DNA from: Candidatus Gastranaerophilales bacterium | GTDB taxonomy: Bacteria > Cyanobacteriota > Vampirovibrionia > Gastranaerophilales > Gastranaerophilaceae | Reading direction: 5' to 3' | DNA: 64,000 nucleotides | Assembly (NCBI GenBank): GCA_016280955.1 | Contig: JAEEHV010000080.1 | Location: 1 to 64,000, forward strand | Part shown: positions 31,273 to 50,966 of the stretch, one piece after another | Layout of the letters: each line of letters starts with the position of its first letter | Position numbering within the stretch: the stretch's first letter is position 1 | The notes under the pieces: generated by a model | Database searches by the model: none | What the model saw: the letters and a program-made list of their open reading frames with translations, nothing else | What the model was told of the DNA's origin: nothing | Position numbers and translations under genes: made by a program

Positions 31273-31644
31273 TTAGCAGCCCCTTTTTGTTGAAGTTCTT
31301 TCTAATAATTCTTTGTTCCATTCTTTTTCAGCTTTTTTTATTGCTTTTTTTATATTGTCAATAACTGTTGTTACATCACGGAAAACATTTTCAAGCAAAA
31401 ATTCGCCACCGCCGTATGCTTCCGTCAAATCACCATAAATTTTATGTGAAAAGTGCATTTTTGAAATTTCATTGTTGATTACTACATCAGTTTCATAACG
31501 CTTTTCCAGGTAATTGATAAAATTTATATTTTCAATTCTTGAAGCGAATTCGCCAAGTTTTGTAACGTTTTCCGTACTGACAATGCCATTCACTTTTAAA
31601 CCTTTAAATGTCATTGGATTGTAATTTGTATTAATGTTGTTCAT
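31273..31644 (-). CDS. Small protein with N-terminal TFKG tag
   Basis: 123 aa, no recognised family. The start at 31644 (MNNINTNYNPMTFKGLKVNG) is set by AAAGGAAC 7 nt upstream; an earlier in-frame ATG has no such site. The N-terminal MTFKG belongs to the recurring Phe-[Lys/Arg/Gly]-Gly motif of this window. The remainder is mixed helix and strand with a charged Lys/Glu helix at the C-terminus ending TSTKRGC. It lies 88 bp upstream of gatB on the same strand. Confidence 0.75.
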   Translation of the reverse strand: MNNINTNYNPMTFKGLKVNGIVSTENVTKLGEFASRIENINFINYLEKRYETDVVINNEISKMHFSHKIYGDLTEAYGGGEFLLENVFRDVTTVIDNIKKAIKKAEKEWNKELLERTSTKRGC

Positions 31645-31700
31645 ATTTGTTCCTTTCTTTATAGGTATCAAAACACCTAAAAATTTTTTTTGCTAAAAAA

Positions 31701-48320: not shown

Positions 48321-48328
48321 TTATTTTT
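48321..48328 (+). repeat. 8-bp target-site duplication, left copy
   Basis: ttattttt immediately outside the left terminal repeat; an identical 8-mer flanks the right end at 50573-50580. Confidence 0.8.
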
Positions 48329-48354
48329 GGTAACTATATACAATGTTACAGTAA
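48329..48354 (+). repeat. Left terminal inverted repeat, 26 bp
   Basis: Begins ggtaactatatacaatgt and is the exact reverse complement of 50547-50572. Confidence 0.9.
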
Positions 48355-48420
48355 ACTTAAAAAATCTATCTGAATTTTTATATTAAAGTATAGGACTTTA
48401 AAGAAAGAGGATTTTTACTT

Positions 48421-48681
48421 ATGGATATTAAACAACTTAATGAAGATTTAAACAAAATTTTAACAGAATCGGTTGAATTGAATGAGCATAAAATTTTCTA
48501 CTATATGGTAGAAATGTATAGAAAATATTATTCCTTAAAATCACAGGAGGAAAAAGATTCCTATATTGAATATAAAGAACAAGATTTAGCCGATTGGGAT
48601 AAAGATGTTAATTATGCAGAAGCCGTAAAACGTTTCAAAGAACTTATTGTAGCACCATTTAGATGGGAATTAAGTTTGTAA
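48421..48681 (+). CDS. Transposon passenger gene 1, unknown small protein
   Basis: 86 aa, acidic and helical: MDIKQLNEDLNKILTES, then HKIFYYMVEMYRKYYSL and a DWDKDVNYAEAVKRFKEL stretch. No known domain. It starts 66 bp inside the left repeat with AAAGAGG upstream of the ATG and ends 4 bp from the convergent transposase stop. Being inside the element, it is carried by it; a toxin-antitoxin or regulatory role cannot be inferred from the sequence. Confidence 0.75.
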   Translation: MDIKQLNEDLNKILTESVELNEHKIFYYMVEMYRKYYSLKSQEEKDSYIEYKEQDLADWDKDVNYAEAVKRFKELIVAPFRWELSL

Positions 48682-48684
48682 ATT

Positions 48685-49623
48685 TTAAGCAGCGATTAAA
48701 TCTTGGTAACGAGTTCTAACCGTCATATTTGTTAAGAGTCTTGTAAACCTTTCGTTTTCGTCATAATCCTTTGTATTGAAACGAAATACAAACTCGTCTA
48801 AGTATTTTTGCAAGTGTTTTCTGCTTGTAAAGTGGTAAATACCGATTAATCCTCTTTTAACCAAAGACCAAAAGCCTTCAATGCTGTTTGTAAAGGCAAG
48901 TCCGTCAACATATTGATTTAGGTTATGTCTGACTATTGCATGAATGTAGAATTGAGATATACGGTTATATCCTAAATATTCGTCTGTATAGATATTTGCA
49001 GAATCTCTCACGCAACGGATAATCTCTTTTGTAAGGGTATCGGCAGAAGTTTTTGGAACAACTTTTGCATTAACTTTTCCTTTACGTTCTACCATACCTA
49101 AAACAGCAACTTTATCCTTTAAACTTCTTCCCTGACAATGTTCAACCTTTTTGTCTTTATGGCGGTTAATATTCTTACCACCGATATAAGTTTCATCAAC
49201 TTCAACCTGTCCGTTAAGAATGTTATTGTTTTCAAACTCAAAGCATTTTCTAATCCTTTGTAACATAAACCATGCAGTCTTTTGAGTAACATGTAAGTCT
49301 TTATGAAGTTGAAGCGATGCAATACCCTTCTTATGAGAAGTAATCAAGTAAATAGCCATAAACCACTTCCTCAGAGAGATATTAGATGCTTCAAAAAGAG
49401 TTCTGGTTCTAACATTAAAGTATCTGTTAGAGTTTTTGCAGTAGTAACGATTATCTTTGCATTTATATACCTTAGAGGTTTCGTCAAAAGGACTTACTAC
49501 TTCATCATTCCATCTGATTAGTTCCAAAAACTTTATGCAAGCATTTTCTGTCGGAAATGCCTTTTGCAAATCGAACAAACACTTGAAACTATTAAGTTTT
49601 TGAATAAATCTATCGTTCTTCAT
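48685..49623 (-). CDS. IS1595-family (ISXO2-like) DDE transposase
   Basis: 312 aa. Core motifs: SLRKWFMAIYLITSHKKGIA, QKTAWFMLQRIRKCF, the first catalytic region VEVDETYIGGK, the second YTDEYLGY, and the third NSIEGFWSLVKRGLIGIYH. The N-terminal zinc ribbon of the family is decayed: the first CxxC is replaced (SPFDE) and only two cysteines remain (YKCKDNRYYCKN). The ATG at 49623 is taken; a GTG 39 nt upstream (at 49662) is possible. It is the only transposase in the window. Confidence 0.93.
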   Translation of the reverse strand: MKNDRFIQKLNSFKCLFDLQKAFPTENACIKFLELIRWNDEVVSPFDETSKVYKCKDNRYYCKNSNRYFNVRTRTLFEASNISLRKWFMAIYLITSHKKGIASLQLHKDLHVTQKTAWFMLQRIRKCFEFENNNILNGQVEVDETYIGGKNINRHKDKKVEHCQGRSLKDKVAVLGMVERKGKVNAKVVPKTSADTLTKEIIRCVRDSANIYTDEYLGYNRISQFYIHAIVRHNLNQYVDGLAFTNSIEGFWSLVKRGLIGIYHFTSRKHLQKYLDEFVFRFNTKDYDENERFTRLLTNMTVRTRYQDLIAA

Positions 49624-49778
49624 ACTTTTATTGTAGCGGTTCGGCCTGTCAGAATCGGTCACAGCCCTTGAGTAGAGTTGCTTTTAATTGTTTTTGAGAC
49701 ACAATTCTTTACATTCAACTATCGGCTCTAATATATTATACTGGAGTTTTTAAACAAACTACTTTTTTGTGAAATATA

Positions 49779-49819
49779 GAAGGACGGATTAAAGAAAATC
49801 ATTCCTTAATCCGTCCTTC
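49779..49819. repeat. 14-bp hairpin inside the transposon
   Basis: gaaggacggattaa (49779-49792) pairs perfectly with ttaatccgtccttc (49806-49819). No T-run follows on either strand. It stands between the 192-aa gene's stop and the transposase's 5' side and may insulate them or protect the transposase from read-through. Confidence 0.6.
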
Positions 49820-49840
49820 AAAACAAAATATATAAATCTA

Positions 49841-50419
49841 TTATAGTCCTAATTTTGATTGAATACTTTCAAGTTCTTTTAAATCCTCAACCTTAAATTC
49901 ATGAACTTTCGTATTTACAAACATTTTTTGTGATTGTTCAGATACCAATTCAAAGATTCGACTAATATACGCTTTAGTATATTTTTTATATCCTGCAATA
50001 AAATCTTTAAAACTTCCATCTTGTTTATAATCTTTGTATTTAATTTCTTCTTTTGCTTTCTTAGAAAACTCTTTTGATTTTTCTCTTGATGCAAATGTCC
50101 ACATTATTTCTTTATCTTCCCCTGTAAATAAAACAAATGAATGATAGCCTTTTTCTAAAGGTTTATCAATGGGCCTAAAATTAAAGCGACCTAGTATTTC
50201 AGAACCTGTTGTAGCCTTTTTACCTAATTTATGTAAAATAAGATTTAAGTAATATCCAAATGTTGTACTTCCTATTTTATCTCCTTCAATTTTGCTAATC
50301 ATTTTATCAAATTCAACAGAACATTGATGTAATTTATCAGGATTTTTAAATGCACTTTTGCGAACTCTTATTAAATTAATCTGACCAAAACTTGTATTAT
50401 CAACCTTATTTATTTCCAT
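49841..50419 (-). CDS. Transposon passenger gene 2, protein with N-terminal SFG tag
   Basis: 192 aa, unknown family, basic and helical. The ATG at 50419 (MEINKVDNTSFGQINLIRVR) is set by AGGAAAGG 7-10 nt upstream; a GTG three codons earlier is less likely. The DNTSFGQ motif is a variant of the Phe-Gly tag near the N-terminus of several host proteins. Other visible pieces: KGYHSFVLFTGEDKEIMWTF and a Lys-rich middle. It begins 128 bp inside the right repeat and points inward. Confidence 0.75.
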   Translation of the reverse strand: MEINKVDNTSFGQINLIRVRKSAFKNPDKLHQCSVEFDKMISKIEGDKIGSTTFGYYLNLILHKLGKKATTGSEILGRFNFRPIDKPLEKGYHSFVLFTGEDKEIMWTFASREKSKEFSKKAKEEIKYKDYKQDGSFKDFIAGYKKYTKAYISRIFELVSEQSQKMFVNTKVHEFKVEDLKELESIQSKLGL

Positions 50420-50546
50420 GTTTGCCACCTTTCCTAAAGTTATAAAAACATCTAAAAAATTTGTTTGCTATCAAACTTAATAAATATTTACAAATTCGTG
50501 AATAGAAATAGGTATTAAATAGGTGACTGTGATGTTTTAGCCAAAA

Positions 50547-50572
50547 TTACTGTAACATTGTATATAGTTACC
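50547..50572 (-). repeat. Right terminal inverted repeat, 26 bp
   Basis: Exact reverse complement of 48329-48354; ends gttacc. Confidence 0.9.
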
Positions 50573-50580
50573 TTATTTTT
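50573..50580 (+). repeat. 8-bp target-site duplication, right copy
   Basis: ttattttt, identical to 48321-48328, directly outside the right terminal repeat. Confidence 0.8.
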
Positions 50581-50618: not shown

Positions 50619-50966
50619 ATGAAGATTGATTCTGTACAAAATTATTGTTGTGTGCCGAATTTTAAAGGCAGGTTTTTTAAGGAGGGTGCATTCAGACAGC
50701 TGGAAAACAGTTTAACCGGTTCTGATAAAGATACTTTTAAAAGGATAGTTAAAAACATAGAAGAAACTTCAGATGAGCATAGCTGGTGGTTCGATACATC
50801 AAGCATCAGAAACGGCAGAATGAAAATTGCCGTTATAGGACAGCTAAACAAAGACGGTACCCCAAGAAGACCGGGATATTTTCTGGATGAAGCAAAAAAC
50901 TCTCTGGAACTTTTTAAACGTCTGGAAATCTGGTATAAAAATAATGTTGAAGGATATAAAGGATAG
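50619..50966 (+). CDS. Small protein with N-terminal NFKG tag
   Basis: 115 aa. The ATG at 50619 is chosen over a GTG at 50610 because GAGGAG (50602-50607) is correctly spaced for the ATG only. N-terminus MKIDSVQNYCCVPNFKGRFF carries the tag motif. The rest is an alpha/beta sequence (HSWWFDTSSIRNGRMKIAVIG) with no recognised family. The mobile element inserted just upstream, at 50573, so its promoter may have been changed by the insertion. Confidence 0.75.
   Translation: MKIDSVQNYCCVPNFKGRFFKEGAFRQLENSLTGSDKDTFKRIVKNIEETSDEHSWWFDTSSIRNGRMKIAVIGQLNKDGTPRRPGYFLDEAKNSLELFKRLEIWYKNNVEGYKG

Follow-up and report, generated by a model that had tools for sequence, protein, structure and literature searches.

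Passenger genes are known to be carried by transporter IS (tIS) of the IS1595 family (PMC3129680, citing Siguier, Gagnevin and Chandler 2009), and MITEs and mobile insertion cassettes (MICs) are named there as known forms (PMC3129680). The kind of element described here is therefore already known. Such tIS possess an IS1595 transposase, terminal inverted repeats, an 8-bp target duplication and passengers unrelated to transposition. All of these are found in a 2,244-bp element at positions 48329–50572 of the window (the whole 64,000-nucleotide stretch of DNA that was analysed). The element differs from the described tIS in its cargo genes and in its lineage, a Gastranaerophilaceae one whose sister elements hold restriction enzymes in the corresponding slot; no description of either was found in the open papers that were searched. 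No publication linking 'IS1595 family' with KilA-N was found, and none of the titles and abstracts listed for mobile elements of this lineage addressed this element. To judge from the searchable literature, the lineage, its cargo and the comparison of slots seem to be new.

The preferred explanation, with a probability of roughly 0.8, is that the locus is a complete IS1595-family tIS from a Gastranaerophilaceae lineage of elements, in which the core (26-bp ends and DDE transposase) is constant and the genes between the core and the ends are exchanged.

Ends, transposase and insertion site

Two passenger genes and one intact IS1595 transposase are located between the ends. The left (48329–48354, plus strand) and right (50547–50572, minus strand) 26-bp terminal inverted repeats start with GG and are perfect (26/26 positions complementary). 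The target-site duplication TTATTTTT abuts both repeats on the outer side (48321–48328 and 50573–50580). The preliminary description had reported perfect 26-bp repeats with an exact 8-bp repeat outside them, precisely as found here, and inverted repeats with an 8-bp target duplication are as expected of the IS1595 family.

The transposase gene (48685–49662, minus strand) encodes 325 aa from a GTG start, an ATG being present at 49623. Its product matches Pfam DDE_Tnp_IS1595 (PF12762; E 1.6e-43, 148.7 bits, cut-off 27) and the NCBIfam IS1595 family (NF033547; 196.9 bits, cut-off 75), and its D, D and E motifs are intact; it is a DDE transposase of the IS1595 (ISXO2-like) type. A close relative (82% identity) is found in 'Candidatus Gastranaerophilales' RUI120 (L064). 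Judging from family knowledge, the transposase would bind the 26-bp ends and cut out or copy the element, so that the element would be moved by its own enzyme. It would then be joined to AT-rich 8-bp targets with the cargo carried along, a step of which the duplication and the empty site are observed.

When both flanks were joined with one TTATTTTT and the genus was searched, matches crossed the junction in four genomes (G066, G017, G005 and G067). In the empty-site alignment, panD and the next gene are separated by a short AT-rich spacer and no element is present. The empty-site genomes belong to other species (70–77% identity), and the comparison is between species only. These sites establish insertion relative to the sister species and say nothing on the enzyme responsible. 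An empty site in relatives had been proposed as a check of the initial claim of a complete IS1595-type transposon with passengers. The claim is borne out by the ends, the duplication, the transposase and the empty site in the four sister species. Of the accompanying assessment 'probably recent', the perfect repeats and duplication are compatible with it, while the comparison behind the age runs between species only.

The cargo slot and the 192-aa passenger

Two sister elements from Gastranaerophilaceae (L202 and L204) have near-identical ends, 8/8 duplications and transposases 78–79% identical to that of the window. L204 (genome G251; 5,670 bp, transposase 79%) carries a 1,072-aa Eco57I/TaqI-type IIG enzyme, a 124-aa protein (whose LicD match was judged doubtful) and two small ORFs. 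Besides a 778-aa N6-methylase/type IIG-like protein, L202 (genome G325; 5,244 bp, transposase 78%) carries a DUF1828 protein and one of 167 aa. In both, the enzyme gene is located directly upstream of the transposase gene and co-oriented with it, which is the place of the 192-aa gene here; these are the only two intact elements whose transposase is close enough (78–79%) for direct comparison of the slot. Sister elements with restriction-type genes in the cargo slot appear to be new and were overlooked by the preliminary description. Most of the assemblies appear metagenomic and some sister elements could be misassembled, which is argued against by their intact duplications. In a more distant element (L259, genome G188; 4,882 bp, 8/8 duplication, transposase 62%), the load consists of Fic and Schlafen-AlbA proteins together with a C-terminal fragment of a type ISP/IIG enzyme. 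The window element itself is not a restriction-modification carrier: neither passenger has a methylase or endonuclease domain by Pfam, NCBIfam or PADLOC, whereas such domains are present in L202 and L204.

Beyond phages, plasmids and conjugative elements, a small and simple transposon is thereby suggested to move accessory genes, restriction-type ones among them, from chromosome to chromosome in a little-studied gut lineage. Cargo exchange could proceed by recombination, and a small group of sister elements that share their ends but differ in load allows it to be tested. In a wider proposal, the IS1595 elements found in gut Gastranaerophilaceae would serve as a platform on which defence genes are exchanged as cargo. 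Its parts would be fixed ends and transposase, a small gene with a constant promoter and N-terminus and a variable C-terminus, and a slot swapping type IIG enzymes, Fic/AlbA and others; the 192-aa family would then be an undescribed defence protein. This proposal is speculative and considered doubtful.

The passenger gene in the slot (49841–50428, minus strand) encodes 192 aa (195 aa from GTG) and belongs to a family of Gastranaerophilaceae proteins that bear an F-[GK] tag at the N-terminus. In a profile search, 27 of the 383 genomes of the order contained relatives; these are patchily distributed, and almost all belong to Gastranaerophilaceae. The 18 homologous loci scanned are solo genes beside ordinary genes, and no element ends were found near them. 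As in tIS, passengers unrelated to transposition are present between the ends, and the 192-aa family is chromosomal outside such elements. Since the family is elsewhere solo and chromosomal, capture of a lineage gene fits; this lineage-specific gene would have been picked up by the element, probably within Gastranaerophilaceae. It fills the slot, upstream of the transposase gene, that is taken up by type IIG restriction-methylase-type genes in two sisters. A lineage-specific, unstudied protein family is thereby tied to a mobile element.

At the N-terminus, the aligned family members have in common a stretch of the form NF[GK]QVNLIQIPKKAF. The window copy retains the family tag and the HSF core, without part of the middle, and is the longest branch and the most diverged member in a 17-member tree, with no firm placement. 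No donor was identified from the tree, which counts against the preferred explanation, as does a GC content of the copy below that of the window. The divergence, the missing part of the middle and the low GC content (26.7% versus 34% for the window) could also be expected of an ordinary IS1595 insertion in which two random pieces of host DNA were trapped, functionless for the element and the host. Such trapping is quite improbable: the reading frames of both the 192-aa and the 86-aa gene are intact, the passenger keeps its tag and HSF core, and the promoter and N-terminus of the 86-aa gene are conserved in a sister element. In addition, a very stable terminator-like hairpin with an 18-bp stem (49779–49819, minus strand; −28.3 kcal/mol, z −8.6) is located 3' of the passenger gene and sets it apart from the transposase gene.

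The 192-aa protein could instead be a phage-defence protein, the element being one more carrier in a defence-carrying transposon lineage. The gene occupies the exact slot of the type IIG restriction-methylase-type genes of two sisters, the family is patchily distributed, and Fic, RhuM, BstA-like and KAP-NTPase proteins (PADLOC model matches) are the load of other relatives. However, no PADLOC family matched the 192-aa protein above noise (HEC-01A, E 0.007), its chromosomal homologues adjoin ordinary genes without evident defence clusters, and its fold is not predictable (single-sequence prediction with pLDDT 41, too weak for a fold search); a defence role is considered unlikely. The searches of Pfam and NCBIfam gave no family and no known fold was matched, and the passenger was not found in viral contigs and plasmids.

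The Phe-Gly tag noticed earlier at the N-terminus of the 192-aa protein is confirmed, and it is typical of the family, whose conserved N-terminal stretch contains F-[GKR]. As to the accompanying remark that it also occurs on host proteins, some unrelated host N-termini resemble it, and the strict pattern was observed in six proteins against 0.65 expected from shuffles. Host proteins with a similar N-terminal stretch are encoded in the window at 50619–50966 and 31273–31671 and in L088, L229, L126, L128 and L121. In these mutually unrelated proteins the stretch ends approximately in [PNT]-x-F-[KRQG]-[AGS], as in the 192-aa passenger. In this lineage, the stretch could act as a targeting signal.

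The 86-aa gene at the left end

The small gene (48421–48681, plus strand; 86 aa) reads from the left end toward the transposase gene and is convergent with it. Its promoter/leader with the first codons (48357–48464, plus strand) is 84% identical over 111 nt to the equivalent region of L204; the matching DNA begins immediately inside the left end and includes the first 15 codons. The N-terminal 44 aa of the protein are 41% identical to the 124-aa protein in the same slot of L204, a similarity resting on one sister element, while the C-terminal half differs and is not conserved. Otherwise this slot is variable: it is occupied by a GIY-YIG gene in G015 (L066) and is empty in L064. On these sequence grounds the 86-aa gene is an element-linked accessory gene that tracks the left end and has its promoter and N-terminus in common with one sister element; this had been missed by the preliminary description.

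A single-sequence search revealed no relatives of the 86-aa protein in the 383 genomes of the order, no family was assigned in Pfam, NCBIfam or PADLOC, and comparison with plasmids, phages and PDB gave nothing above noise. Its single-sequence fold prediction (pLDDT 64) is too weak for a fold search.

The two passengers had also been proposed to form a toxin–antitoxin pair, which would stabilise the element. A small acidic protein is indeed combined with a larger one without an assigned function, and in a relative (L060) a SocA/Panacea antitoxin-domain gene is found beside a gene without an assigned function. An adjacent, co-directed pair occurring together is not what is observed here, however. 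The genes are located at opposite ends and on opposite strands with the transposase gene between them, the 192-aa family occurs in more than 20 genomes whereas no relative of the 86-aa protein was found in the 383 genomes of the order, and the 86-aa gene tracks the left end of the element instead. Position, strand and phyletic distribution do not support the proposal, and a toxin–antitoxin pair is very improbable indeed.

Related ends and accessory proteins in other genomes

The 26-bp end was found with up to three mismatches in 11 of 65 genomes of the same genus and with up to two mismatches in 25 of 383 genomes of the order, the reversed pattern giving 0 in both searches. Recurrence across genomes with none for the reversed control indicates more than chance. 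In the same-genus search, 44 matches to the end were obtained in G066. Further full copies of the element were not found in its own genome, where it is single-copy. The check proposed earlier, a search for other copies bounded by the same repeats, gave none in the element's own genome; in relatives, near-identical ends are present. A solitary element end is located at G000:C28:76466-76491 (L009:6466-6491), just 3' of an rnc-like gene, with no convincing partner in the 2.5 kb covered downstream of it. A match at G000:C4:24419, AT-rich and within a TPR-like gene, was judged to be due to chance.

MITEs of ~110–240 bp with the same ends, many with exact 8/8 duplications, are present in G066, G188, G116, G166 and G124. 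The interiors of those in G066 (e.g., L077:2434-2605) contain a TCATTCTGA...GAAGAATC repeat. Three cassettes of the same family of bacteria, L203 (4,667 bp), L221 (2,730 bp) and L102 (1,574 bp), lack a transposase but have these ends and an 8/8 duplication. The proteins of L203 and L221 are mutually related and have NPPY/NPPI methylase-like motifs, without a methylase Pfam domain; the L102 cassette has one ORF of 281 aa with no family assigned. These short or transposase-less elements of related genomes, with the same ends and 8-bp duplications, correspond to MITEs and MICs, from which the window element differs in having its own transposase. The related MITEs and cassettes are probably moved in trans.

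More distant IS1595 elements, mostly from Bacteroidota (L055–L061, L065), have a KilA-N, P63C or RhuM gene as neighbour of the transposase gene (transposases 50–64% identical, related ends, AT-rich 8-bp duplications). In most of them the accessory gene and the transposase stop overlap by ~8 nt, whereas the small gene of the window is convergent and unrelated. In L055, L056, L057, L058, L059, L060, L061, L062, L065, L258 and L261, a similar C-terminus, roughly S-[DE]-F-[DN]-x-x-L-K-K-A-L-x-[FY]-[ND]-P-[KN], is found on unrelated accessory proteins beside the transposase (KilA-N, P63C, RhuM and an 89-aa protein), and most of the tail-bearing genes show the ~8-nt overlap. The common C-terminal tail may dock these proteins to one partner. 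In L055, a related IS1595 element with an exact 8-bp duplication, the KilA-N protein (L055:4148-5008) has a C-terminal part that matches BstA, a protein of phage defence (PADLOC, E 7e-15).
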